A program made the position numbers and the translations under genes. The notes below the pieces were generated by a model. The model made no database searches, was not told the origin of the DNA, and saw only the letters and a program-made list of their open reading frames with translations. 54,950 bases of DNA from an uncultured Parvibacter sp. (lineage in GTDB: Bacteria > Actinomycetota > Coriobacteriia > Coriobacteriales > Eggerthellaceae), in the NCBI GenBank assembly GCA_947649875.1, contig CANSTH010000002.1, forward strand, positions 1 to 54,950, given 5' to 3'. This document shows, in pieces, positions 3,254-44,238 of the stretch (its first letter is position 1; each line of letters begins with the position of its first letter).

Positions 3254-3377
3254 CATGTTAGACATGGGGCAGCAAACAAGAAGGCGCCCACCGAAGGGCG
3301 CCCTCTTTTGACAGATTCTAGCTGTACTAGGCGCGGCAAACGTCTGACACTGTCTGCCCGATATTGCCGTGATGGCT

Positions 3378-3536: not shown

Positions 3537-4193
3537 CTAGCCCTGCCATTTGCGGTTGCGCAGGATGTAGCAAATCTGCGGGCCGTTGCCCATGTCAGCG
3601 AGGTGGTACACGTCCGATTCGCTCCAGGGCTCCACCCAATCCGCCAGCGTGGTGCGGGTGGCGGTCATGGTGTCGTAGTCGGTGGACAGGTCCTGCGTGG
3701 GTGCCGGCGCCTCGAAGGTGGCAATGCCCTTGTCCAAATCGCCGAAGAAACGAGCGCGCGAACCGCACTGGGAAACGCACTGGGGCAGTTCGCCCTGGGA
3801 AGTGCGCTGCTCGCACAGAGTGCACTTCTCCACCACGCGCTCCTCTTCATTCAAGTAGCGCACGCCGTAGGGGCAGGCCATGGCGCAGAACTGGCAGCCG
3901 ATGCACTTCGCCTTGTCGATCTGCACGGTGCCGTCGGCAATCTTGTGGGACGCCTCAGTGGGGCACACCTTCACGCACTCCGGGTCGGCGCAATGCTGGC
4001 ACTGGATAGGTAAAAAGTACATCTCCACATCGGGCCAGTCGCCGCTGCCACCCTCCTTGGGAGTGGGGCCGATGCGCAGCGTCTTGATCCAGAAGTCGCC
4101 CACGTTCACACCGTTCACAGCCTTACAGGCGGTAGAGCAGGCCAGGCACCCAACGCAACGGTTGAGGTCGGTAACAATTGCAAATTGCGTCAT
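3537..4193 (-). CDS. 4Fe-4S dicluster electron-transfer subunit (DmsB/NrfC-like)
   Basis: Several CxxCxxC(x)nC motifs (CVGCLACSTACKAVN, CQHCADPECVKVCP, CIGCQFCAMACPYG, CTLCEQRT). Confidence 0.93.
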   Translation of the reverse strand: MTQFAIVTDLNRCVGCLACSTACKAVNGVNVGDFWIKTLRIGPTPKEGGSGDWPDVEMYFLPIQCQHCADPECVKVCPTEASHKIADGTVQIDKAKCIGCQFCAMACPYGVRYLNEEERVVEKCTLCEQRTSQGELPQCVSQCGSRARFFGDLDKGIATFEAPAPTQDLSTDYDTMTATRTTLADWVEPWSESDVYHLADMGNGPQICYILRNRKWQG

Positions 4194-7100
4194 TTAGATC
4201 ACGTCTCCTGTCCAATCCGGCTCGCCCTCGCAGCGCGCACGGTTGCCCTTTCCTGTCTGCACCCATTCCTTCAGGCGCGGGTCGGACGCATCGTGTATGC
4301 ACTCGTTGCCGTTAGGATCGCAGGGCACGGGGTTGCCGAACGGCGAGTTCTCCGCCGTGGCCTTGTAAACCAGCACCGGGGTGGAGCGCATATTGGCGCA
4401 ACCGGCCGTGGGGCACTGGCCATAGGGGTTCATCACGCAGTTGATGGATACGGTGTCGAAGCCATGGCCGGCAGTATCGAACTCGGGGAACCACCAGGCG
4501 TGGTTGGCGTTCACAACGCCTTGCTTGATGCCGTAGTACACGTCCAGCACCTCGCGCACCTTGCCCCAGGGGCTCTCGATCCACACCCAATCGCCCTGCT
4601 TGAGGCCCAGGCGCTCGGCGTCGTTGGGGTTCATTTCCACACGGGGGCTGGGCCACAGCTCGCGGCACCAGGGCAGCTGGCGATGCTCGCTGTGGAAGTA
4701 CACCGGCTGGCGGGAACCCGTGGTCATGAGGAAGGAGTTCTCCGGCATGGCCTTCAAGTCGTCCACATAAGTGGGCACCATGAAATCAGTGGCGTCAATC
4801 TGATCGGCCATAGAGGCATCGAACAACTCGGGGGTGGTAACCGGCGAAGTGGCAGGCTCTTTGTAGGCGGGGAACTTGGCCTCGTCGCCCAGATAGGCCT
4901 CGCATACCAGCGACCAAATCTCTATCAGGCCGGAAGCGGTCATGAATCCGGGGTGCAGGTCCACCAACGGGAACAGGTTGAAGCCGCCCTGCTGGCGACG
5001 CCAGCCCATCTCGTGGCGGCGGTAGGTGCCCCAGCGCTCGGGATGCCACTCGCGGCAATCCATCCAGCCGTTCTCCTGGAAGTGCTGCTTGGCCTGGGCC
5101 CATGTGGGGCCATCGGGGAATTCGGCGGTCTTCCAGGCGTCCACGTTGTCTTTCAGCACGCGGTCGTGATCGGGCCACAGATAGCTGGGGGCGCCGGAGG
5201 CATCGTACACATCTCCCAGCTTCTCGCTCCACTCAGCAATGGAGGATTGGCATTGCGGCGCGAAGTTCAGGTTCTGGGCCGGCGCCGCATCCGGATCTTT
5301 GGTGTTCCACGGCACGCCCATGCACTTGTACATGCCCACGTTCCAGTCGGGGTCATAGATGGTCTCGCCGGTGGGCTCCACCGCCTTGCAACCGCAGCCG
5401 AAAAAGCCGCCGGCACCTTGGGACACGCGAGTGGTGTCGATCTCAAGCCAGTGGTCGCAGGGGAAGATGACATCGGCGTTGCCATTGTTGGGGCAGAACC
5501 ACAGGTTGATGTCGGTGAAGAAGTCCAGCTCCTTGGTGGCGTCCCACGCACGGGTGATGTTGCCCATGTTCATGATGTCGCCGGACTGGCACACGCCGCC
5601 GTGCAGCTCGTAAGGGGTGGGGTGCACGTTGTAGGCCACGTCGGCGTTCTGCAGGCATGCATCCCAAATGGTGTTGCTGTCGGCCCAGCGCGCCCAGTAG
5701 CGGTTCAGCGGGAAGCGTTCGGCGTCCACCTGGCCCGCCTGACGCTCAAAGACGGTCTTGGGGTTCGGCCATGCTTGCGAGTTGCGCATCGCACCGCCCA
5801 TGCGCTTGGCAATCACAATGGCCTCCTCGTCGGAGGGCACCTTGTTGCCGTAACGAGCGGCCAACGGAGAGTTGTTGTCCAGCAGGTACTGCACGAAATC
5901 CTGCATGTACTTGGCCATATCTTCCAGGCTGTAGTCGCGGCCCGGCCACATCTTGGCGGCATCGCCGTACGGGGCGCCCGCCTGCATGTTGGAACGACCC
6001 GGGTTGCCGTCGAACTGGCTCTTGGAGGAACCGCGGTTGCCGGCCGGCTCGTCGGAGTTGCCGGTGATGCAGGAGAGAATCTGCAGGCTGCGGTTGTTCT
6101 GGATGGAGTTACCGTTCTGGTCGCAGGCCAGCTGGAAGTGCAGGCCACCGTTGCCGTAGTCGGGGTCGATACGGGTGGTCCAAATGCGCACGCCCTCTTC
6201 CAGCTTGTCGGCCGGAACGCCGGTGATCTGCTCCACCGTGGCAAAGTCGTACTGGCTGGTAAGGTCATGGAAGGCGTCCCACACGGTGCGGGCCTTGTAG
6301 GAATTGCCGTCCTTCAAAGTAACGTCAATCTCGCCGGGGAACAGCGCCGGGATCTTCGCCACGCCCTTGGGGTTGCACTCTTCGGAACCGTTGGGGAAGC
6401 GGTCGGGCTCGGTAGCCGGGTCGGCGAAGGAGGAGGGGGTGGGCAGCCATGCGTCCGCCACCAGGCCGGTCAGCGGATGCTCAATGAAACGACCATCGGT
6501 GGGGATGCGATGCTCCTCGCCTTCCCACTTGCCCTCTTCGGCATCCCAGTAGGTGAGGCGCTCGTTGGCCTCGTCCCACACCATGAAGCGCTGGTACTTG
6601 CCGCCTTCCACCAGGTCGGCCTCGGTCAGCAGCTTGGTCTTCATGTCGATGCCGCCGTTGCCTTCCACAAGCCAGCCCTCAGTGAGCCACGGCTTGTCCT
6701 CGATGAAGAGGAACGGGGCGTTGGACCAGCGACGCACCATGGTGTCGTCGTAGGCCTCGTTCTCGATGACCCAATTGGTCCAGCCCAGCACGATGGCGCC
6801 GTCGGTGCCGGGGCGCAGCGGCAGCCACACATCGGCTTCCTTTCCCAGCGGGGTGACGCGCGGGTCCACGATGATGTGGCTCTCGGCATGGGGGGCCACG
6901 TCGGAAATGGTACGGTTGGTGGTGTCGTAGTTGGAGTACTCAACGGCGGTGCCCCACTGCACGTACACCTTCGGCTCGGCTTCCACTTCCATCCAGGGCG
7001 AGCCCATCTCGTCAGTCATGATGCCGGCGAAGTGGCGCGGGCCCTTGCACACCTGATAGGCCAGGTGAGCGTTGGGGGTACCGAACAGCTGTTTCATGCC

Positions 7101-7598
7101 CTGGTAGGGACCAAGACTCCATACGCGGGAGGTGCCGCACATCACGAAGATTGCCTGGCCGCCGAACTTGTCCTTTATCTCGCCCAGCTTCTGGCCGCAA
7201 ATCTCAAAGGCCTCGTCCATGGAGATGCGCACCCAACCGGGATCGTCGGAACCCTTGGGGTTGGTGCGCTTGACGGGATAGCGCACGCGATCGGGATGAT
7301 AGAGCGCCTGCATGGAAGACTGCGACTTTGCGCAGCAATGGCCGCGAGACTGGGGCGCCGATTCGTCGCCCTCCACCTTCAGCACCTTGTTGTCCTGCAC
7401 GGTTACCCACACGCCGCATTCCACTTTGCCGCAAGCACGGCAGCAGGAGCGCACGCGCTTAACCTCGCCGGTGCTCGCATTCTCATCTGCAGCCAGCGCC
7501 TGCTTCGGCGCGGCAGCAGTGGTTGCCAGCGCGGCAGCGGCTCCGGTCATCGCCATCGTCTTCATGAAGCTGCGACGCGACATCGTTAGCTGAGCCAT
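4194..7598 (-). CDS. Tat-exported molybdopterin-dependent oxidoreductase, catalytic subunit (resembles the actinobacterial catechol dehydroxylase/DMSO reductase superfamily)
   Basis: Tat motif MSRRSFMKTMAMTGAAAA; 4Fe-4S motif CRACGKVECGVWV...GHCCAKSQSS; CKGPRHFA, VDPRVTPLGKEADVWLPLRPGTDGAIVLGW, YFHSEHRQLPWCRELWP. Confidence 0.93.
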   Translation of the reverse strand: MAQLTMSRRSFMKTMAMTGAAAALATTAAAPKQALAADENASTGEVKRVRSCCRACGKVECGVWVTVQDNKVLKVEGDESAPQSRGHCCAKSQSSMQALYHPDRVRYPVKRTNPKGSDDPGWVRISMDEAFEICGQKLGEIKDKFGGQAIFVMCGTSRVWSLGPYQGMKQLFGTPNAHLAYQVCKGPRHFAGIMTDEMGSPWMEVEAEPKVYVQWGTAVEYSNYDTTNRTISDVAPHAESHIIVDPRVTPLGKEADVWLPLRPGTDGAIVLGWTNWVIENEAYDDTMVRRWSNAPFLFIEDKPWLTEGWLVEGNGGIDMKTKLLTEADLVEGGKYQRFMVWDEANERLTYWDAEEGKWEGEEHRIPTDGRFIEHPLTGLVADAWLPTPSSFADPATEPDRFPNGSEECNPKGVAKIPALFPGEIDVTLKDGNSYKARTVWDAFHDLTSQYDFATVEQITGVPADKLEEGVRIWTTRIDPDYGNGGLHFQLACDQNGNSIQNNRSLQILSCITGNSDEPAGNRGSSKSQFDGNPGRSNMQAGAPYGDAAKMWPGRDYSLEDMAKYMQDFVQYLLDNNSPLAARYGNKVPSDEEAIVIAKRMGGAMRNSQAWPNPKTVFERQAGQVDAERFPLNRYWARWADSNTIWDACLQNADVAYNVHPTPYELHGGVCQSGDIMNMGNITRAWDATKELDFFTDINLWFCPNNGNADVIFPCDHWLEIDTTRVSQGAGGFFGCGCKAVEPTGETIYDPDWNVGMYKCMGVPWNTKDPDAAPAQNLNFAPQCQSSIAEWSEKLGDVYDASGAPSYLWPDHDRVLKDNVDAWKTAEFPDGPTWAQAKQHFQENGWMDCREWHPERWGTYRRHEMGWRRQQGGFNLFPLVDLHPGFMTASGLIEIWSLVCEAYLGDEAKFPAYKEPATSPVTTPELFDASMADQIDATDFMVPTYVDDLKAMPENSFLMTTGSRQPVYFHSEHRQLPWCRELWPSPRVEMNPNDAERLGLKQGDWVWIESPWGKVREVLDVYYGIKQGVVNANHAWWFPEFDTAGHGFDTVSINCVMNPYGQCPTAGCANMRSTPVLVYKATAENSPFGNPVPCDPNGNECIHDASDPRLKEWVQTGKGNRARCEGEPDWTGDVI

Positions 7599-9828: not shown

Positions 9829-10740
9829 ATGACCCAGTTCGACGACATCGCAGCCGACGAGTTCGAAGAAGAGTTCGACCCGCTGGCAGACGACTTCGAT
9901 GACAGCATTTTCGATGGAATCGAAGAGGACGAAGAGGCGGTAACCGAGTTTTTGGCGCCCGACCCCAGCCGTGTGGAAGCGGTAGAGGGCACCTTGAGCC
10001 GCAACGAGGACGGCTATCGGCAACGGCCGGCCGCTGAACGCACCGCCGAGCTGTTCGCACAAATGAAGCCCTACCGCTTGGTGTTGCTGGAGCTGATCCG
10101 TACCTGCGAGCAACCGCAAACCACCGAGGCCATGATGGAGCGCTTCGCTCAGCTGCATGCCAATTTCAAATCCACTTACTCGGGTGCCAACCTGCTGTCC
10201 ATGCTGGAAGCCGCTGGCGCTATCGATTGCGTCACCGAAGACGGCACTGCATACGCCGATGTGGAAGTGGAGCCGGTAGTCAAAACCGACGAGAACGGCG
10301 TGGAGTATCTGGCACCCGGCGAGGCACCGGCCATGATGTGGGTGGCCGCCGAGGCAGGCCACGCCATGGTGGAAGCGAACGACCCCCAATCGCGCATCGA
10401 TGCGCTGTTCGCCAAAGAGACGCAGTACCTGCCCGTCTTCAAGCGCATCCTGCGCCTGGCCAATCAAGAAAGCGGCGTGTCGGTGGCGCAGCTGTCCGGT
10501 GCTGTGGATGACGACCCCCTGGTGCAAGAGCCCCGTTACTTCGTACAGCACTTCCTGAAAAATCTCGAGCGCCACGAGGCAGTAGCCTGGTGCAACAACA
10601 GCTGGGTGACTACCGATTTCGGCAGGAAACTGCTAGCCGACCTGGCCGATATAGACGACTCCTATAACCCATCCGAGGCTCACGAGCAAGCGCGCATCCG
10701 CGCCATTGCCGCAGAGTCCACCATGGGTGCCGTTTGGTAG
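9829..10740 (+). CDS. Acidic uncharacterised protein with two possible winged-helix-like modules, upstream of torD-like gene
   Basis: RBS AAAGGAG just before ATG at 9829 (the ORF track starts at 9805); very acidic N-terminus; complete ORF followed by the TorD-like gene. Confidence 0.8.
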   Translation: MTQFDDIAADEFEEEFDPLADDFDDSIFDGIEEDEEAVTEFLAPDPSRVEAVEGTLSRNEDGYRQRPAAERTAELFAQMKPYRLVLLELIRTCEQPQTTEAMMERFAQLHANFKSTYSGANLLSMLEAAGAIDCVTEDGTAYADVEVEPVVKTDENGVEYLAPGEAPAMMWVAAEAGHAMVEANDPQSRIDALFAKETQYLPVFKRILRLANQESGVSVAQLSGAVDDDPLVQEPRYFVQHFLKNLERHEAVAWCNNSWVTTDFGRKLLADLADIDDSYNPSEAHEQARIRAIAAESTMGAVW

Positions 10741-10815: not shown

Positions 10816-11517
10816 ATGATTGAGAACATCGCCCCCGAGGCCATTGCTGATAACCAGGAAATTGCCCGCGCCATGGAATCGCGCGCCGCTACCTACGGGT
10901 TGCTGGCCCGCCTATACCGCCGCGAAGTGGATCAGACACTGCTGGAGGAGCTGAAGACCGTGCACTTCCCCTTCGACACGGGCAATGGCCTGGTGGACAG
11001 CGGCTACCGCATGATGGTCACCTACCTGTCCAAAACCTGGGAGAACACCCTCACCGAGCTGGCAGCCGACTACCTGCGCACCTTCTTGGGCCACGGCATC
11101 GATGGCCACTCCGCCGCCTACCCCTACGAGTCGGTGTACACCTCCGAGCGCCGACTGCTGATGCAAGACGCCCGCACCGAGGTTCTGGCCCTATTCCGCG
11201 CCAACGGCCTGGAGAAAGATTCCTCCTTCAAGGATGCGGAAGACCACATTGCCCTTGAGCTGGAGTTCATGCAGCTGATGGCACTGCGTTGCGCCGAAGC
11301 GTTGCGCAGCAATGACGCAGACGAGGCGCTGGCGCTCGTGCGCGCCCAAGCTGCTTTCCTTGATGACCACCTGATGGCGTGGGTCCCGCTGTTCACCACC
11401 GAAATGCTGAAGTTTGCGAAAACCGACCTGTACCGGGGCTTAAGCCGCGTTACCGAAGGCTTCCTCACCGAAGACCAGCGCGTGCTGGAAGAGATGCTGG
11501 AGAACGCCGAAGATTAA
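10816..11517 (+). CDS. TorD/DmsD-family molybdoenzyme chaperone
   Basis: TYGLLARLYRREVD...DYLRTFLGHGIDGHSAAYPYESVYTSERRLLMQDART...EDHIALELEFMQLM is typical of TorD family. Confidence 0.88.
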   Translation: MIENIAPEAIADNQEIARAMESRAATYGLLARLYRREVDQTLLEELKTVHFPFDTGNGLVDSGYRMMVTYLSKTWENTLTELAADYLRTFLGHGIDGHSAAYPYESVYTSERRLLMQDARTEVLALFRANGLEKDSSFKDAEDHIALELEFMQLMALRCAEALRSNDADEALALVRAQAAFLDDHLMAWVPLFTTEMLKFAKTDLYRGLSRVTEGFLTEDQRVLEEMLENAED

Positions 11518-35208: not shown

Positions 35209-36081
35209 CTACTTAGATTTGTTTCCTGCAGATGGCCTTACGAGCGGAAACGTGATGGCCTTGGCCGGGCAGGCGCTTGCACACTGGCCGCACTTCGAGC
35301 ACTCGGGGATGAAATCGCTGTGCGGATCCAGCTTCTCGGGACACGCATTCACGCATGCCCGACAATCTGTGCCGTCTTCGCGCAGGCAAAGCTGGGGGTT
35401 CACCGATGGACGGAAGAGCCGGTTGCCTGAAGACACAAGGGACAGCAGAGCGCTCACCGGGCAGAACCGCGTGCACCATTTCCGAAAGAGCGTCACTTCC
35501 AGCAGCAAGATGACGGGAAACACCACTAAGCCCCATGTGGTCTCGTTGAAGGCGAACAGGTGCCAAACGCCGATGAGAATGGTAAACGTGAGGCCGATAG
35601 GGCACACAAGGCAGAAGACCGGAAACCCGAAGATAGCGCTGGAGCCCAAGGCGCCCGCCAGTACCAAATGCCGACTGTCAAGGCGAAGGCCATCGCGCTT
35701 GCCCCCTACCGGAGGCAGTGCCTTTCCGCAACCGGCGCAGTGGCCAGAACAGCCTGAAGTGGAGGAGGCGCTAACGGCTGAACGGCGCTTCTTCCTGCGG
35801 AAAAACTTCTGCAGCCAGGGGAACGGACAGGCCCACGCACAGAGAACTTTACCGAACACCAGCACAAGCGCCACCGTGAGGGCGATGCATAGCACTCCCC
35901 GAAGCACAATTCCTTTGGAGCCGAGCATGGCCTCCAAGGCCCCCACCGGGCATATGACCGCAAGGCCATCAATGCCAAAAACGGAAAGATTCCCCGTGCC
36001 CGTGTGGAACAAAAGGCCCAGGATGGGGATTGCCAAAACTGCCACCAGTGCGCAAATGCCGCGCATGCGCTTCATGTTCAT
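35209..36081 (-). CDS. 4Fe-4S membrane ferredoxin, NapH/YccM-like
   Basis: VLCAWACPFPWLQKFF, FGFPVFCLVCPIGLTF, C-terminal ACPE..CSKCGQCASACPAKAITFP; ATG overlaps the upstream stop (ATGA). Confidence 0.87.
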   Translation of the reverse strand: MNMKRMRGICALVAVLAIPILGLLFHTGTGNLSVFGIDGLAVICPVGALEAMLGSKGIVLRGVLCIALTVALVLVFGKVLCAWACPFPWLQKFFRRKKRRSAVSASSTSGCSGHCAGCGKALPPVGGKRDGLRLDSRHLVLAGALGSSAIFGFPVFCLVCPIGLTFTILIGVWHLFAFNETTWGLVVFPVILLLEVTLFRKWCTRFCPVSALLSLVSSGNRLFRPSVNPQLCLREDGTDCRACVNACPEKLDPHSDFIPECSKCGQCASACPAKAITFPLVRPSAGNKSK

Positions 36082-36659
36082 CGCTTGCCCCCTTCCGGCA
36101 CAACGTAGATGGCGCGATGGGGTGCGCCGCCGTAATAGCCGAAGCTGTCGGAAGGACACGCGTACTCACAGGCACCGCAGCCGTTGCAGGCCTCTTGATC
36201 CACAAGGGGAAGCTGGGTGCCATCATCCCAGGCAATAGCGCTATAGGCGCAGACGGGCACGCATTTTTGGCAATGGACACACAGCTCGCCGTCCACTATG
36301 GCACACCCGATGTAATCCAGCGGGCCAGCGCTTCCCAGGGCGCCTGTTTCGCATACCCTCACACAGCGGGGGCCAGCAGGGTCGCTGCCGCAAAAGTCGC
36401 AGATACCGCGGGTGAAATTCATGATGGGGGTATCAACGTTAATCCACCCTTGTTCCAGCGTGCCCAGGGCGATGCACCCTTGCGGGCACGCGCTTCGGCA
36501 GCGATCGCAGCGGATACAGGCCCCCAAAAGCGCTTGCTGGTCATAGCCGCCCGGCGGCCGCAGCAGTTCTGCCCCCGAGGCAGTAGCCCGCACGCCGCCG
36601 CCCAGCAGCAGCAAAACCGAGGCGCCAATCGCCCCAGCGCAAAATTCCCGTCTGTCCAT
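36078..36659 (-). CDS. NapG-like 4Fe-4S protein with Tat-like N-terminus
   Basis: MDRREFCAGAIGAS; CIRCDRCRSACPQGCI, CDFCGSDPAGPRCVRVCETGAL, CVHCQKCVPVCAYSAI, CNGCGACEYACPSDSF; AGGGGAG RBS. Confidence 0.9.
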   Translation of the reverse strand: MDRREFCAGAIGASVLLLLGGGVRATASGAELLRPPGGYDQQALLGACIRCDRCRSACPQGCIALGTLEQGWINVDTPIMNFTRGICDFCGSDPAGPRCVRVCETGALGSAGPLDYIGCAIVDGELCVHCQKCVPVCAYSAIAWDDGTQLPLVDQEACNGCGACEYACPSDSFGYYGGAPHRAIYVVPEGGKR

Positions 36660-36720
36660 CTCCCCTCTTTTCAGCAAAGATTGCGCGCGGCCGCCTGGAG
36701 GGTGGCGGCCGCGCAGAGTT

Positions 36721-37524
36721 TTACAGCATGCCGAAGAAGTTGTTGACTACGGCGGAGGTGGCCCACATGGCGCAGCGCAGCGCTACGCAACCGGCGAAGG
36801 AGGCCCCTGCGGCCACACCGGCCAGGGCGAGGGCGCTTGGGGGCATCTTGCGGCCGAGCCATCCGCAAACGGCAGGCACAACACCGCCCACTGCCACTAC
36901 GAGGCCCCACATCAACAACGGCTCTTGGGAGGCAACACCGGTGGCCACGCCATAGAACAGGCCAGTGATGGCGGCCACTGCGCCGCCCACCAGCAGCAGC
37001 ATGAAGTACTGGCCCATGCCCTCCTCATGCTTCGCCAGCGCCACGGCAAGATACACCGCCACGCCCAACGGCATGGTGGTACCGCCATAGGCCAGCGGCA
37101 GCAGCGGCGTATTCCAGGCGGTTTGCGCATCCATCATGTAGGAGGCGCCGGAAGCGAAAGCCAGCACGATACCGAACACGGCCGCCAGCACTGCGAACAG
37201 CTTGCGGGCGCTAGCAGCGGCATTGCGCTTCAGCAAGATGACGTACACCAGGGCAAACACCGCTGTCAGACCCACTAGCAGCGCCTCGGTGAAGATGCCG
37301 CTTGTGGGGTGGGAAAGCGCCGCCAGCATGTTCTCGGGGTGCGAGAGATGGGTGACCGAGGCGATGCCCCCCACTGCCGCCAGCACGATGGCCACGATAG
37401 CGGCAATGAAGTTGGTATCGTTCTTGGTCTTCTGCGTGAACTCGTCAACGGCAACGCAGCCCAGCGCCCATCCGGCGCCACCGGTGAGCACCGTGAACAA
37501 AACAAGGGACCATTGGATTTCCAT
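36721..37524 (-). CDS. DmsC-like membrane anchor subunit
   Basis: MEIQWSLVLFTVLTGGAGWALGCVAV...THLSHPENMLAALSHPTSGIFTEALLVGL; about 8 TM. Confidence 0.88.
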   Translation of the reverse strand: MEIQWSLVLFTVLTGGAGWALGCVAVDEFTQKTKNDTNFIAAIVAIVLAAVGGIASVTHLSHPENMLAALSHPTSGIFTEALLVGLTAVFALVYVILLKRNAAASARKLFAVLAAVFGIVLAFASGASYMMDAQTAWNTPLLPLAYGGTTMPLGVAVYLAVALAKHEEGMGQYFMLLLVGGAVAAITGLFYGVATGVASQEPLLMWGLVVAVGGVVPAVCGWLGRKMPPSALALAGVAAGASFAGCVALRCAMWATSAVVNNFFGML

Positions 37525-37526
37525 GG

Positions 37527-38150
37527 TTACTCACCTTTCTTCTGAAGATAGCGCCCTGCTCCCTGGAGGGTGGAGGAGTCCTGCCATTCGGCATAGCGCT
37601 TGGACAAGATATAGCTGGTAGCAGGTGCGTTCCCCACATCGGTAAGGGTGTGCACCGCATCGGGCTCGGCCGCCGCCAGCGCCTTCGACACATCGGAAGA
37701 GGGGTCGTCCAAGTCACCGTAGAAACGAGCGCCACCGGGGCAGTTGTGCACGCAAGCGGGCAGTTCACCATTGGAAGTAAGGTGGCCGCACAGTGTGCAC
37801 TTCTCCACCACCTTCTCCTCCTGGTTCCAGCTGCGCACACCATAGGGGCAGGCCATCATGCAGTACTTGCAACCGATGCACTTCGCCTTGTCCACCAGCA
37901 CGACATTGGTGTCGGGATCGCGGTAGGAGGCGCCGGTGGGACACACGTGCACACAGGGGGCGTTCTCACATTGCTGGCAGGCCACCGGCAGGAAGTACTG
38001 GGAAAGCTTGGGGAATTCCCCGAACGGCCCCACCGTGAGCACCTTGTTGTAGTAAGAGCCCAGCGCAATGCCGTTCTCCATCTTGCAGGCCACTTCGCAG
38101 CTGAAGCAGCCGGAGCACCGGTCAAGGTCGACTACGAGAGCGTTACGCAT
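37527..38150 (-). CDS. 4Fe-4S dicluster subunit (DmsB-like)
   Basis: MRNALVVDLDRCSGCFSCEVACKMEN; CQQCENAPCVHVCPTGAS; CIGCKYCMMACPYG; the longer ORF start in the track is antisense read-through. Confidence 0.93.
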   Translation of the reverse strand: MRNALVVDLDRCSGCFSCEVACKMENGIALGSYYNKVLTVGPFGEFPKLSQYFLPVACQQCENAPCVHVCPTGASYRDPDTNVVLVDKAKCIGCKYCMMACPYGVRSWNQEEKVVEKCTLCGHLTSNGELPACVHNCPGGARFYGDLDDPSSDVSKALAAAEPDAVHTLTDVGNAPATSYILSKRYAEWQDSSTLQGAGRYLQKKGE

Positions 38151-41014
38151 GTCTGAATCACCTCCGTGGGATCGCTGTATTCTGGCATCCAGGGCTGGAA
38201 GTCTTCCGGTTCCATCCAGATGCCCTCGGGAGCGCCGTCGGCCGGCGCGATGGAAACTTGGTAGGAGCGCAGGGTGTAAGTGCCGTTCACGTCCGAAAGG
38301 CGCCCGTGGCTGTTGGACAGACGGTTCACCGTTACCGCACGCCACGACTGGTCGCGCTTGCCCTCTTGGTCCAGGAACTCCGGCAGCCAGAAGCGCTCCA
38401 TGTACACCTCGCCGGGGCGCACGCCCTTGGTGACGCGCACCTTGCCGCGAATCTCGCCGCGGCGGCTGCGCACCCAGGCCCACTGGCCGTCTTCCACGCC
38501 GTACTTCGCGGCGTCGTCGGGGTACACCCACACCTCGGGCACGGGGTAGATCTCGCGCAGGTAGGGCACGTTGCGCAGGGTGCCATGGTGGTACATGGGC
38601 AGGCGGCCGTTGCTCATCACCAGGGGATACTCGGTGTCTGTGAGCGGCGACTCTTCCGGCTCCTCATAGTAGGGCAGCGGGTCGTAGCCGTACTTCACCA
38701 AACTGTTGGCAGCGTTGGGGTTCTCCACCGGGTTGTCCACGAACACCTCCGGATGCATAGCCCACGGCGATGCCGAAAGCCCCAAGGTGATATAGCCCTC
38801 GGAATAGGGCTCGCACTTGCCGGAAGCGGTGCCGAAGCCGGTGAGGTAGCCGCAGGGGTCTTGCTGCAGATAGTAATAATAGGTGTGCCAGTCTTCCCAG
38901 CTTACAAACTCGTAGGGGGCCTTCTCGCAGAACTCGTCCCAGGTCATGCCAAGCCCGGCTACGTGGGCGTCGCGCTCTTCCTGATCGGTGAGGGGCATGG
39001 GGATGCCGCCCATTTTGCTCACGCAGCCATCGGTGTCCTCGATGGCGCGGCGGCAGTCCTCATCGCCCAGCTCCATCATGCGCTTGGTGAGGTCGGACCA
39101 GATCATGGCCTCGTTGCGGGTCTCGAACAGGTGGGTGGCCTCTTGGCGTTGGAACACCTTGTTCAGGATTTGGATGGGCTGGTTCGACTCCAGCCACTCG
39201 ATGATGGGCAGCACGTAGTCGGCCCCTTCGATGGTGAACGAGGTGGGATACATGTACATGTGCACGATGAGGTCAAGCTCTTGGATGGCGTTGTAGCAGC
39301 GCTCGGTTTCCGCGAGGTTCTGCAGCTTGTTGCCGGAACGCTCCAGCCAAATGCGCGGCTTGTAGGGCTGGCCGGTCTCAATGGCCTCGAACACATAGGG
39401 AATAACCGACATGGCCCACTGGCCGATGCCGCGATGCTCGCTAAAGCCCAGCCGCTTCGCCTCCATCTCGGCGCTCACGAGGCCGTACATGCCGCCCAGC
39501 TCGTCGGCCATCGTGGGCTTCGGGAAGCGCTGCAACAGTGCGCCGGGCTTTTCCACGTCACCCTTCAACAGCGCCAGCAGCGCATAGCCGGCAGAGGTTT
39601 GGCCCGACTGCGGGTTTTGGTCGGTGGCCACGCCGCCGATGATGCCGGCGGTTTGCGCCTGGCAGTAGATATCGATGGCCGCCTCGATGTCGGCGGCATC
39701 GCACCAGGTGATGTCGGTGGTCTTCTGCAAGTCCCACTCGTCGGCACGCTCTTTGGTCAGCTGGAAGGCGGTCTTGTAGCCGCCCTTGCCGTTGATGGTG
39801 TAGCCAGCATCGTTGAACAGCTCGGCATCTACCTGATTGTCGAAAAAGTCGTTTAACTCCTGCTCGGACTTAGGATAGGGCACCGCAACAGGCCCGTTGG
39901 TCTTCTTGTCCCAGATGACGAAATAGGGAATGCCGAAGTAGCCCAGCGCCGGATTGTCGTTGTTGGGAGCGGTGGTGTGGCCGGTGAGGGTGTCGGCGGC
40001 GGTGGCCTGGATTTGCGCCTCGTTCTCCTCTGCGCTCACAAGCCCCAGGTCGATGGCGCGTACCGGGATGCCATTGTCGGGGTCCACCAGGTAGGGCAGG
40101 TTGGTCCACTTCAGGCAGAAGTCCTTGTCGTAGCCCTCTTTCTCGATGATGTACTTGGTCCAGCACAGCTGCATGGCCACATCGGTGCCGGAGCGGATGG
40201 GCAGCCACACATCGGCACGAGCAGCGTCGGCGGTGAAGCGCGGGTCCACCACCACCGTCTTGCAGCCGGCGGCGCGGCGGTCGGCCATCACGCGGCCGCC
40301 GCCCGGAGGGGTATCGGCAGCGGGCTGGGCGGCCCATACCACCACGGCGTCGATGTTCACGTCGGGGTTGTACATCTCGAAGCAGTTGGAGTCGGCCATT
40401 GAGCAGTTGCCGGTCATGAAGTCGCCGCCGTACATCAGCTTGTAGGACACCATGCGGGGCAGGTAGCACTGGGCGCACCCGGGCTCGAAGGTGTTGGGCG
40501 ATTGGATGGCCGCCGCAAAGCGGTTCACCGACCAGAACTGGGGATTTCCGCCGCCACCCGTAGACATGAAGATAGATTCGGGGCCGTATTGTTGCTTTGA
40601 TTCCCACAGCTTCTGGGCAATCTCATCGATGGCCTCTTCCCAGCTGATGCGCTCCCACTGATTGCCGCCGCGCTCGCCCACGCGCCGCATGGGGTACTTG
40701 TTGCGGTTCGGGTTGTACAGCGCCTGGATTCCCGCCAGGCCCTTGGCGCACAGCCCGCCGTGGGTGGTGCCGTCCTCGCTGTTGCCTTCCAGCTTCACCA
40801 CGCGGCCGTTCTCCACCGTGGCGATGGCGGCACAGCGGGCCACGCACGCACGGCACAGGGTTTTCACCTTAATGGTGCCCTGGGTAGATGTCTTGGCCTC
40901 GGCGGATTCAACCAGGTTTCCGCTGCCGATTGCCGCGCCCAAAGCAGCGCCGGCGCCCGCGAGAGCGGTCAGCTTGGTGAAGCCGCGACGCGACATCATT
41001 GCCTGTTCCATCAT
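38132..41014 (-). CDS. Tat-exported molybdopterin oxidoreductase, catalytic subunit (DmsA-like)
   Basis: MSRRGFTKLTALAGAGAALG; CRACVARCAAIATVENGRVVKLEGNSEDGTTHGGLCAKGLAGIQ; GGAGGA RBS before ATG at 41014. Confidence 0.93.
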   Translation of the reverse strand: MMEQAMMSRRGFTKLTALAGAGAALGAAIGSGNLVESAEAKTSTQGTIKVKTLCRACVARCAAIATVENGRVVKLEGNSEDGTTHGGLCAKGLAGIQALYNPNRNKYPMRRVGERGGNQWERISWEEAIDEIAQKLWESKQQYGPESIFMSTGGGGNPQFWSVNRFAAAIQSPNTFEPGCAQCYLPRMVSYKLMYGGDFMTGNCSMADSNCFEMYNPDVNIDAVVVWAAQPAADTPPGGGRVMADRRAAGCKTVVVDPRFTADAARADVWLPIRSGTDVAMQLCWTKYIIEKEGYDKDFCLKWTNLPYLVDPDNGIPVRAIDLGLVSAEENEAQIQATAADTLTGHTTAPNNDNPALGYFGIPYFVIWDKKTNGPVAVPYPKSEQELNDFFDNQVDAELFNDAGYTINGKGGYKTAFQLTKERADEWDLQKTTDITWCDAADIEAAIDIYCQAQTAGIIGGVATDQNPQSGQTSAGYALLALLKGDVEKPGALLQRFPKPTMADELGGMYGLVSAEMEAKRLGFSEHRGIGQWAMSVIPYVFEAIETGQPYKPRIWLERSGNKLQNLAETERCYNAIQELDLIVHMYMYPTSFTIEGADYVLPIIEWLESNQPIQILNKVFQRQEATHLFETRNEAMIWSDLTKRMMELGDEDCRRAIEDTDGCVSKMGGIPMPLTDQEERDAHVAGLGMTWDEFCEKAPYEFVSWEDWHTYYYYLQQDPCGYLTGFGTASGKCEPYSEGYITLGLSASPWAMHPEVFVDNPVENPNAANSLVKYGYDPLPYYEEPEESPLTDTEYPLVMSNGRLPMYHHGTLRNVPYLREIYPVPEVWVYPDDAAKYGVEDGQWAWVRSRRGEIRGKVRVTKGVRPGEVYMERFWLPEFLDQEGKRDQSWRAVTVNRLSNSHGRLSDVNGTYTLRSYQVSIAPADGAPEGIWMEPEDFQPWMPEYSDPTEVIQTCVTLS

Positions 41015-41047
41015 TTCCTCCTTCAATCCTCTCTTGCGGATTTCTCT

Positions 41048-41653
41048 CTATTGAAAGACTGGCGAGGGAACTGCTGCACCCTCCACAGTCGTCCAACCAT
41101 TGGCCCATTTCAGGGCCCCTGCCCGCGCTAGGCTGTCTACGAAAAAGCTGGGGTAGACCGCCAGCGCCGCCACATGCCGCTGGTTTTCCTGCTGTTCGCA
41201 GAGGGGGGTGAGCAGCGCGTCGATTTCCTGCCGCGAGCGTTTGGCGCCCCGGCAGAAGTCCAGCAGCTGGGAAAATGCCTCGGCCCATTGGGGATGGCGT
41301 GCCACCAGCGCGGAGAGCCGTGCGTTTGGGGAAAGCTGCTGCAGCGCCTCCGCCCCCTCTTCCGTCAGCCGGTAGGAGGCGCGGGCCATGTCGATGTACT
41401 CTTCCTCGGTGTCTTCGTCGAAGGTGGGCTCGGGCAGCTCTTCGGCCAAAGCGCCAAAAGTCACCAGGGCGTCCACCAGGCTGCCCGCCGGCTGGAAGAA
41501 CGTGGCGCGCTCGGGCGCCGCCTCGACGGCCTCTTCCACCGCAAAGCGCAGGGCGCCTTCTGGATTCGCCGCCACAAACGTCATGGCCGCCAGATACAGC
41601 TCGCGCTTCGCCGGTTCACGGGTGATGGCGGTAACGATGGTTTGGACGCTCAT
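41048..41653 (-). CDS. Uncharacterised protein, resembles the 9829-10740 product; adjacent to TorD-like gene
   Basis: VDALVTFGALAEE...YRLTEEGAEALQQLSPNARLSALVARHPQWAEAFSQLLDFCRGAKRSRQEIDALL can be aligned by eye with 9829-10740. Confidence 0.72.
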   Translation of the reverse strand: MSVQTIVTAITREPAKRELYLAAMTFVAANPEGALRFAVEEAVEAAPERATFFQPAGSLVDALVTFGALAEELPEPTFDEDTEEEYIDMARASYRLTEEGAEALQQLSPNARLSALVARHPQWAEAFSQLLDFCRGAKRSRQEIDALLTPLCEQQENQRHVAALAVYPSFFVDSLARAGALKWANGWTTVEGAAVPSPVFQ

Positions 41654-42478
41654 TTAGGCCACCTCCCTGCGCGGACCGTGCAGGGTTTCTTGCTGCGTTG
41701 CGGCCTTCGCCCGCGCATCGGCCGCCAGCGCCCGTACGCCCTTTTGGGCAGCAGCGCCATCCACGGCCATCTGGGTGCACTCGAGCGCCATCCAAGCTGC
41801 CGTTGCCTCCAAAAGCCCCTGGTAGAAGGGGGTTTGAGCCAAATCCGCCGCCTCTTCGCAGAAAAGCGGCACCCATGGCGCCAGGTGGGCGGCGAAGAAG
41901 GCCTGCGCCTTCTCGCGGTACGTTGCGGCTTGGGCCCGTGCCGCATCAGCCGCGGCCACCGGGCCTTCGTCTTGCGTCCCACCAAGCGCATCGGCGCAGC
42001 GATTCAGCAGCAGCGCCATGTACTGGAACTCGAAGCTGATGTGGTCTTCCGGCATGTTGAAGCCGTCGCTCACCGCCAGCCCATCCGCTGCATAAGCGGC
42101 GCAAGCACCGTCGCGGGAAGCCTGCATGATAAGGCGTCCCTCATCGGCATAGACGCTCTCGAACGGCGACACCGGCACCTTGGTCACCGAGCCGGCCCCC
42201 AGAAACACCCGCGCGTAGTCGCACCGGGTTTCAGTGATGGAGTCGGCCGTGCGCCGCTGCAGGAACTTGCGCATGCGGTTACTCCCGCGGGCAAAGCTGC
42301 GTTCGATGCCGTCCGCGCACTCATCCAGCGCCAGCACCGGCTGGGCCTCCACAAACTGGGCCGCAAATGCCTCGTCGATCTCCTGGTAGAACAGCCGTGC
42401 CAGCAATTGGTAGTAGCCGGCTCGCACGCGCAGCTCCTGCACCTGCAACGCCGTCTCGGCCATTGTCTTCTGCGCCAC
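41654..42478 (-). CDS. TorD-family molybdoenzyme chaperone (GTG start)
   Basis: RAGYYQLLARLFYQEIDEAF...CDYARVFLGAGSVTKVPVSPFESVYADEGRLIMQASRD...PEDHISFEFQYMALL; GGAGGA RBS upstream of GTG. Confidence 0.85.
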   Translation of the reverse strand: MAQKTMAETALQVQELRVRAGYYQLLARLFYQEIDEAFAAQFVEAQPVLALDECADGIERSFARGSNRMRKFLQRRTADSITETRCDYARVFLGAGSVTKVPVSPFESVYADEGRLIMQASRDGACAAYAADGLAVSDGFNMPEDHISFEFQYMALLLNRCADALGGTQDEGPVAAADAARAQAATYREKAQAFFAAHLAPWVPLFCEEAADLAQTPFYQGLLEATAAWMALECTQMAVDGAAAQKGVRALAADARAKAATQQETLHGPRREVA

Positions 42479-42717
42479 AGGATCCTCCTCTCCCTCTCCT
42501 TTGGCACCGACGCTTCTCGTCTTTCGCCGGCGTCCTGATGGCCCGTACCTTAGCCAGCCGGCCCCATTCGCCACCATTGCCAAGGGCAGACTATTTCGCT
42601 GCAGCCATCGTCAATTTGTGCTTATTTCTACTAGTCAACTAGGTGGCTATTTTTTGTTTTACCAGTTCAGAGCCATATAGCTGAATAGCCAGTCCAACGG
42701 AAAAACCCGTATAATTC

Positions 42718-44238
42718 ATGCGAGGAGTTTTGAGGGCGAAGGGAAACCGCGTGAGCCTTACCGACATCAAGGCAAAAGCTGGGGAGCTGGGAGAGCGCAC
42801 AAACGCGCAGTTGCCGGGATTGCCGTACTTGGGCTTTGCCTTCTGGTTCGCTTGGAACCTTGTGGCCTTCTCGGGCACCATCTGGTTGAAGCAAGACGAC
42901 TCCGGCGGCTCTATCATGTACCTGTTCATGGCTCATCTGCTGGCATCCGTTGTCACATTGCTGGCCATAAACCGCGCCATGAAACGCCACAGTGCCCTTA
43001 TCCTTTCCAACCGGTTCCTGGCAGCGGGGGCAGCACTGGGCTGCCTTGGCACCTGGCTCATGATTTTGGAGGGCGGAACCGACGACCACATCACCCTATT
43101 CCTCATAGGCTGCGTGTTAGCGGGCGTTGGCACCTCGTTCATGCTGGTGCGCAGCGGCATGGTGCTGGGACTGGTTCAGCCGCGCCGATCGTTCAAGACC
43201 ATCAGCCTCTGCGCACTGTTCGCCATAGCGGTTTACTTCATCATCGAGGGATACTCGCTCATGATTGGCGCATTTCTGTTCATCTTGTTGCCAGCTCTCT
43301 CGTCGGCATGCCTGGCAGTTCGCACCAATCTCCCCAGTGAACGGGCCATCATGACCACCACCACGAAGCTGCCCAACCGCTTTGGAAACCTGCTGCTGGC
43401 CATATTCGTCTACTCGCTTTCGCAGGCAATCACCAAAGGTTATCTTCTGGAAAGTTTGCCGGCTTCGCAGTGGGTGCTGTGCATGAGCTATGTGATGCTG
43501 GTGCTCATTGTGTTGATGCTGGTATTCATCGCCATCAACCTATGTATGCCCGCCAGCGTCTCGTTCGGGCGCATCTTCTACCCACTGGCCATCTTGTTCG
43601 TGCTGCCGCAATTGGCCATTCCCTTTCTTTCGGAATACCCCATCATCGCAGCAGCGGGCATCGATTTTGCCGGCTACGCCTTCGACCTCTTCGTATGGAG
43701 CATGTGCGCCTATCTGGCGTTTCAGATGGAGGGGAACTCCGTCAAGGTGTTCTGCTATTGCACGGCATCGCTTTCGGCCGGCCTGGCGCTGGGCAACACC
43801 ATGGCGCTGGTGCTGGCCTCGTTTGCGCCGAGCGCCATGCAGTTCTACACCTTGAACTGCCTGATGGCGGTGGCCTCGCTCATTGTGACGGTGTTCGTGT
43901 TCCCGGAGTCGCGCCTGCGCGACTTGCTGCTGCCAGTAGACGAAGAGGGAGACAACAATCCCGCCGATTTAGAGAAGCGCCGCGAAGAAGCCCGCAAGAG
44001 CGCGTTTCGCAACGCCTGCAGCGCTGTTGTGGAAGAGGGCGGCCTGTCCAAACGCGAAGAGGAGGTGCTGGTGCTGCTGGCAAAAGGGTTCACCGCCCAG
44101 CAGATTGCCGACGCGCTGTTCATCTCCATCCACACCGCCCGCGCCCACATCCGCAACATCCACTCGAAGCTAGACGTAACCTCCCGCAAGGAGATCATGG
44201 AGAAGATAGAAGCCCACATAGGCACCATCAGTGGCTAG
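42718..44238 (+). CDS. Multi-TM LuxR-type membrane regulator
   Basis: Multiple TM segments and LSKREEEVLVLLAKGFTAQQIADALFISIHTARAHIRNIHSKLDVTSRKEIMEKIE. Confidence 0.92.
   Translation: MRGVLRAKGNRVSLTDIKAKAGELGERTNAQLPGLPYLGFAFWFAWNLVAFSGTIWLKQDDSGGSIMYLFMAHLLASVVTLLAINRAMKRHSALILSNRFLAAGAALGCLGTWLMILEGGTDDHITLFLIGCVLAGVGTSFMLVRSGMVLGLVQPRRSFKTISLCALFAIAVYFIIEGYSLMIGAFLFILLPALSSACLAVRTNLPSERAIMTTTTKLPNRFGNLLLAIFVYSLSQAITKGYLLESLPASQWVLCMSYVMLVLIVLMLVFIAINLCMPASVSFGRIFYPLAILFVLPQLAIPFLSEYPIIAAAGIDFAGYAFDLFVWSMCAYLAFQMEGNSVKVFCYCTASLSAGLALGNTMALVLASFAPSAMQFYTLNCLMAVASLIVTVFVFPESRLRDLLLPVDEEGDNNPADLEKRREEARKSAFRNACSAVVEEGGLSKREEEVLVLLAKGFTAQQIADALFISIHTARAHIRNIHSKLDVTSRKEIMEKIEAHIGTISG

Follow-up and report, generated by a model that had tools for sequence, protein, structure and literature searches.

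Which compound is reduced by a molybdenum (Mo) enzyme that carries an export signal and has no gene for a membrane anchor beside it? This question is raised by a locus in a stretch of 54,950 nucleotides from an uncultured Parvibacter sp. of the family Eggerthellaceae (contig CANSTH010000002.1), which we refer to as the window. The catalytic subunit A (P0001; 4194-7598, minus strand) is a bis(molybdopterin guanine dinucleotide) Mo enzyme of 1134 amino acids (aa) with a twin-arginine translocation (Tat) signal. Next to it lies the iron-sulfur (Fe-S) electron-transfer subunit B (3537-4193, minus strand; 218 aa), with 16 cysteines in four [4Fe-4S] ferredoxin sets, and a multi-transmembrane (multi-TM), VadR-like LuxR-type regulator (P0003; 7822-9639, plus strand) is divergent from A-B. 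A preliminary description had placed the enzyme among the catechol dehydroxylases of Eggerthella and Gordonibacter and proposed a new substrate that cannot be read from sequence. Every feature stated there, i.e., the 1134-aa Tat protein, the Fe-S partner, the missing anchor gene and the divergent regulator, was found in the open reading frames (ORFs) and Pfam matches, and all the motifs it named are present in A; its span, 3537-7598, omits the regulator and two accessory genes (9829-10740 and 10816-11517). Judged from sequence comparison, the locus encodes a Vadh ortholog, the counterpart of an enzyme already characterised, and what sets it apart is the lack of an anchor gene.

We searched 140 Eggerthellaceae genomes, among them the genome of the window (G000; 2.19 Mb in 163 contigs, 86% complete) and Eggerthella lenta DSM 2243 (G056). 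Relatives of A were found in several genera at ~70-81% identity, and a second group at 57-62%. The E. lenta enzyme Elen_0497 (El Vadh; G056:635502-638810) is 77.2% identical to A by BLAST over 1132 residues and 79% over aligned columns, compared to 57.6% for Hcdh and ~45% for Cadh; the best E. lenta match of B is the Vadh partner at 638814-639473 (76.7%). In a maximum-likelihood tree with characterised enzymes (50 sequences, quick search), which the preliminary description had named as a check, A falls within a 16-member clade with El Vadh, supported at 100 in the Shimodaira-Hasegawa-like approximate likelihood ratio test (SH-aLRT), and a 16-member Hcdh clade, likewise at 100, is its sister. 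The genomes with such relatives had at most one Vadh-type and at most one Hcdh-type gene each, which is the pattern of orthologs. We also scored 108 diagnostic sites, each with one residue fixed in the El Vadh sub-clade and a different one fixed in the Hcdh clade; A is Vadh-like at 90 of them, Hcdh-like at 6 and carries another residue at 12.

The neighbourhood gives the same picture. With the TorD-like chaperone written as F, the DadhE-like and DadhI-like proteins as E and I, the regulator as R and the membrane anchor as C, the gene order is F-E-I-R-A-B-C in E. lenta and in genome G007, and F-E-R-A-B, with matching orientations, in the window. Thus, El Vadh and the locus are alike in the catalytic subunit and the Fe-S partner (77% each), in the divergent LuxR gene and in the order and orientation of the accessory genes; El Vadh, however, has a 301-aa anchor and a DadhI-like gene between E and R, and the window has neither. 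The DadhE-like accessory protein (9829-10740, plus strand; 303 aa, no Pfam family) is 39.6% identical to the product of the accessory gene at 631080-632000 beside E. lenta Vadh, and the TorD-like, DadhF-like maturation chaperone (10816-11517, plus strand; 233 aa) is 59% identical to the accessory chaperone encoded at 630367-631077. When P0003 was compared to the whole E. lenta genome, VadR came first (E 2e-79; 40% identity in the membrane part and 71% in the DNA-binding part), followed by HcdR; the remaining matches were confined to the DNA-binding domain. A also passes both published isofunctional cut-offs, 72% identity (PMC11585353) and 75% identity over 85% coverage (PMC11887054), the latter over 85% of El Vadh. 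Since the tree, the gene order, the regulator and the diagnostic sites concur, A is assigned to the Vadh orthologs. The tree, motifs, partner and regulator thus bear out the proposed membership in the Eggerthella/Gordonibacter group; the proposal of a new substrate gives way to orthology with El Vadh above the published cut-offs, and given this orthology the preliminary description was too pessimistic in holding that sequence does not reveal the substrate.

It should be noted how the reference genes were identified in E. lenta DSM 2243. At 626-668 kb, a block of accessory genes is followed by five R-A-B-C units, and the spacings of the catalytic genes (4, 6, 4 and 4 genes) fit Elen_0497, 0501, (0507), 0511 and 0515. 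Four of these are El Vadh (Elen_0497), (+)-Eddh (Elen_0501), (-)-Eldh1 (Elen_0511) and eCadh (Elen_0515) (PMC11887054); the remaining unit would fit Cadh. The dadh gene of this genome carries the Ser codon at position 506 that marks the inactive allele known from DSM 2243. The sister enzyme at 3.52 Mb has 1193 aa, equal to the published length of Hcdh, and the identity of Hcdh to Elen_0497 is 62.9% over aligned columns here, the published value being 60.6%.

Purified El Vadh was reported in 2025 to remove the para-hydroxyl of (S)-5-(3',4'-dihydroxyphenyl)-4-hydroxyvaleric acid and also to para-dehydroxylate 5-(3',4'-dihydroxyphenyl)valeric acid; the (R) form of the hydroxyvaleric acid is not a substrate (PMC11887054). 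It is probable that A, as an El Vadh ortholog of the Eggerthella type, likewise acts as a catechol dehydroxylase on a dihydroxyphenylvalerate. A would reductively remove the para-hydroxyl from these two acids, which would serve as electron acceptors through their catechol group and would leave as meta-hydroxyphenyl acids; the substrates would be breakdown products of catechin (tea, cocoa) supplied by other gut bacteria. The multi-TM LuxR protein may sense the substrate and switch on A-B, by analogy with DadR, HcdR and CadR, the model for LuxR activation in the presence of substrate (PMC9734109). The TorD-like and DadhE-like proteins would assist the maturation of A; DadhE and DadhF are indispensable for the activity of Dadh (PMC11887054). 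A would then be exported through Tat, taking B along, and two electrons would pass from membrane ferredoxins encoded elsewhere to the four clusters of B, to the one cluster of A and to Mo. In contrast to its relatives, the operon has no gene for attachment to the membrane, which would be either dispensable or provided in trans, from one anchor shared with other enzymes. For the organism of the window we infer all of these steps: substrate, induction, export, electron route and anchor sharing. An enzyme of "unknown substrate" is in this way turned into a directly testable prediction on catechin metabolism, and Vadh is extended to another genus of the gut lineage.

Several observations weigh against a strict equivalence of A and El Vadh. 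The sub-clade of A (SH-aLRT 99), with members from several further genera besides that of the window, stands beside that of El Vadh (93) as a sister group, and 21 fixed differences separate the two; therefore, the specificity of A may have shifted. The enzymes (+)-Eldh1/2, which are 74% identical, differ in the selectivity for the hydroxyl site, so that an identity of 77% is no proof of shared function. Further, the sensing part of P0003 is only 40% identical to that of VadR, and an AlphaFold prediction from 13 sequences gave a predicted local distance difference test score (pLDDT) of 40.8, too poor for a comparison of active sites. A shift within the Vadh clade to a related phenolic acid, e.g., the pyrogallol analogue derived from epigallocatechin, 5-(3',4',5'-trihydroxyphenyl)-4-hydroxyvaleric acid, or to the opposite enantiomer, would agree with the separate sub-clade; Adlercreutzia and E. 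lenta strains dehydroxylate the trihydroxy analogue (cited in PMC11887054), and members of the family often differ in the enantiomer they accept. We nevertheless regard such a shift as unlikely, because a single Vadh-type gene per genome, the kept gene order and the VadR-like regulator are what is expected of an unchanged ortholog, and the identity exceeds the published isofunctional cut-off.

More distant functions are less probable still. That A acts on an unrelated, new catechol, as had been proposed, seems improbable: most of the 126 sequence clusters had no assigned substrate in 2024 and the family is highly specific, but the clade of A contains a characterised member above the published cut-offs, and the real unknowns are other paralogs that this genome encodes, ~47-56% identical to every known enzyme. 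Assignment to hydrocaffeic acid dehydroxylase can be given very little credence; although Hcdh is the second-closest characterised enzyme and HcdR the second match of the regulator, a separate ortholog (81.7%) with an adjacent anchor lies on contig C73 of the same genome and falls in the Hcdh clade, and the Hcdh-like residues of A are limited to the 6 of 108 diagnostic sites. Hcdh of E. lenta and its orthologs resemble the locus in the architecture of A and B and in a P0007-like gene nearby, and differ in identity (58%) and in the substrate, hydrocaffeic acid. That A should be a reductase of the Phs/Psr, Ttr, Arr or Dms type, used in the respiration of arsenate or of sulfur or nitrogen compounds, is next to inconceivable. 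The top NCBIfam name is indeed PhsA, and polysulfide/thiosulfate reductase and acetylene hydratase lead the PDB matches; however, the NCBIfam bit scores are far below the respective cut-offs (PhsA 164 versus 694, TtrA 82 versus 1750, ArrA 86 versus 1600), the matches lie mostly within the N-terminal ~300 residues (acetylene hydratase also matching at the C-terminus), and the relatives that match over the full length are catechol dehydroxylases. With such scores, a placement among polysulfide, tetrathionate or arsenate reductases, which the preliminary description had named as an outcome that would speak against it, was not found, and the NCBIfam and PDB names PhsA and formate dehydrogenase were dropped for A.

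Accepting A as a probable Vadh, what is known of the locus is its enzyme type, and what differs is the architecture. Tat-type enzymes, as described, have three subunits, A, B and the membrane anchor C, and the described two-subunit type has no Tat signal and is cytoplasmic; the unit of the window is of the Tat type without C, as are the Vadh orthologs in both congeners. Of the Eggerthella-type traits, it has the Tat signal and the four-cluster Fe-S subunit but not the adjacent anchor. Dadh, Cadh, eCadh, (+)-Eddh and (-)-Eldh1 share with it the Tat signal, the N-terminal [4Fe-4S] motif, CKGPR, the four-cluster partner and a LuxR regulator of their own, and differ in BLAST identity (~39-47%), in having an adjacent anchor and in their catecholamine, catechin or lignan substrates. 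The Gordonibacter-type enzymes Dodh, Cldh, Gs Vadh and Gp Hcdh have two genes, A-B, and no anchor, as in the window; by description, however, they are smaller (Gp Hcdh has 770 aa) and cytoplasmic, with no Tat signal and no Fe-S motif in the catalytic subunit, whereas A has a Tat signal and 1134 aa and belongs to a different lineage. The missing anchor, which had been taken as a match to inducible systems of the family, is therefore an unusual feature of the locus: characterised Tat-type enzymes have an adjacent anchor, and the anchor-less ones described are of the non-Tat Gordonibacter type.

There is no anchor gene 3' of B in the window, where a GC-rich hairpin followed by a T-run is found at 3283-3302 (pattern match reported on the plus strand) and the gene that comes next is encoded by the other strand; the hairpin is likely the end of the A-B transcript, at the place of the anchor gene of other genera. 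In Eggerthella, G023 and G007, the Vadh unit includes a C gene next to B, and gene positions give the same adjacency in G008, G010, G050, G051, G054, G097 and G109. In six-frame searches with fixed thresholds over partly fragmented assemblies, the other Eggerthellaceae genera (51 genomes) had 161 B versus 167 C genes, none being short of anchors by more than two, compared to 54 B versus 6 C genes in the three genomes of the window's genus (G000, G001 and G002). In this genus, A and the majority of its ~20 sister enzymes have lost the adjacent anchor gene. We considered that an anchor might have been overlooked as a divergent gene. This was rejected, as in the fetched G002 loci no membrane protein lies directly behind B, except in a contig-end unit (L124) and in the Hcdh unit; genes in the fetched regions were called by a simple codon-composition script, which left gaps in four loci (L108-L111).

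One of the few anchors of this genus belongs to Hcdh (G000:C73, G002:C5). Another is a stand-alone gene in each of the three genomes; it has a divergent multi-TM LuxR gene to itself but neither an A nor a B partner, and is 60-64% identical to the anchor of the E. lenta Cadh cluster (G002:C10:305370-306248, or L125 5371-6252; G001:C3:42398-43276, or L105 9396-10277; and G000:C160:2056-2760, where it is split over contigs C160 and C124). A single best counterpart, at a distant place, was likewise found for membrane ferredoxin H of the E. lenta cluster. The E. lenta-type cluster seems to have been taken apart here, its shared parts being kept in single copy. It should be noted that dadhC can be deleted in G. 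urolithinfaciens without loss of dopamine metabolism, which does not hold for dadhB and dadhD-H (PMC11887054); an operon without C is plausible for this reason, and anchor sharing or plain dispensability would both fit. Our suggestion, which we make tentatively, is that the Tat-type dehydroxylases of this genus are two-gene A-B modules (~15-23 per genome) using the one stand-alone, LuxR-switched anchor. If this is the case, a whole panel of substrate-specific dehydroxylases would have a single membrane dock, as opposed to one anchor per enzyme in other genera. Enzymes could then swap onto that dock, the picture of a fixed three-subunit complex would change, and the harmless deletion of dadhC in the heterologous host would be easier to explain.

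Two side observations concern anchors. The stand-alone anchor adjoins an A-B unit in G001 and G002. In E. lenta, the five anchors of the cluster (G056 639477-668065) are 93-94% identical to the first, and the Fe-S and above all the catalytic subunits diverge far more; such uniformity suggests gene conversion or interchangeable anchors.

The coding strand of A follows from codon-position GC, which is 0.60/0.46/0.84 on the minus strand and 0.84/0.46/0.60 on the plus strand of this region; a plus-strand ORF at 4185-7589, also of 1134 aa, is a mirror-image shadow and was ruled out by the same pattern. The protein begins with MAQLTMSRRSFMK and has a Tat signal, MSRRSFMK (Pfam TAT_signal); Molybdop_Fe4S4, Molybdopterin and Molydop_binding all score above the Pfam gathering cut-offs. 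The predicted [4Fe-4S] ligands are C53, C56, C61 and C89, and the predicted Mo ligand is C184, within CKGPR; in the alignment, C184 is the counterpart of the cysteine that binds the metal, tungsten, in acetylene hydratase. All five cysteines are invariant across 13 aligned enzymes. The CKGPR core and the stretch YFHSEHRQLPWCRE do not vary among the characterised E. lenta dehydroxylases aligned and therefore mark the family rather than the substrate. The residue of A matching Dadh position 506 is Arg, which in Dadh is required for activity on dopamine. Among solved structures (PDB), acetylene hydratase ties with polysulfide reductase as the best relative of A; the tree of A consists of dehydroxylases only.

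A simple count gives ~10 hydrophobic segments in P0003, which also has a GerE domain; its true start may be ~16 codons further in, where the homologs begin. Compared to the gene of the window, the regulators of the congeners (L070 15558-17462 and L072 11989-13752) are 72% and 59% identical, versus 97% and 92% for their enzymes; evolution is far faster in the regulator.

The genome of the window encodes many catechol dehydroxylase paralogs. Probable orthologs were found for Hcdh (81.7%), Cadh (82.1%) and eCadh (two, 78.6 and 79.7%) and, as fragments, for (-)-Eldh1 (76.6%) and (+)-Eddh (74.5%). In contrast to these, full-length paralogs on contigs C1, C4, C6, C8, C9, C18 and C39 (loci L003, L016, L010, L013, L006, L012 and L011, respectively) are ~47-56% identical to any characterised E. 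lenta enzyme, and by this measure they are better candidates for new substrates than A.

A second complete Mo-reductase locus lies in the window at 35209-44238. It comprises a NapH-like membrane ferredoxin, an anchor, an Fe-S subunit and a Tat Mo enzyme of more than 900 aa, together with a DadhE-like gene, a TorD-like chaperone and a divergent LuxR gene; this Mo enzyme is below the cut-off for every NCBIfam name, the best being PhsA. Finally, P0007 (1964-3019, plus strand), which has no Pfam or NCBIfam match, has a relative in E. lenta (31%) at 3525662-3526711, a few kb from hcdh, and may be part of dehydroxylase neighbourhoods.

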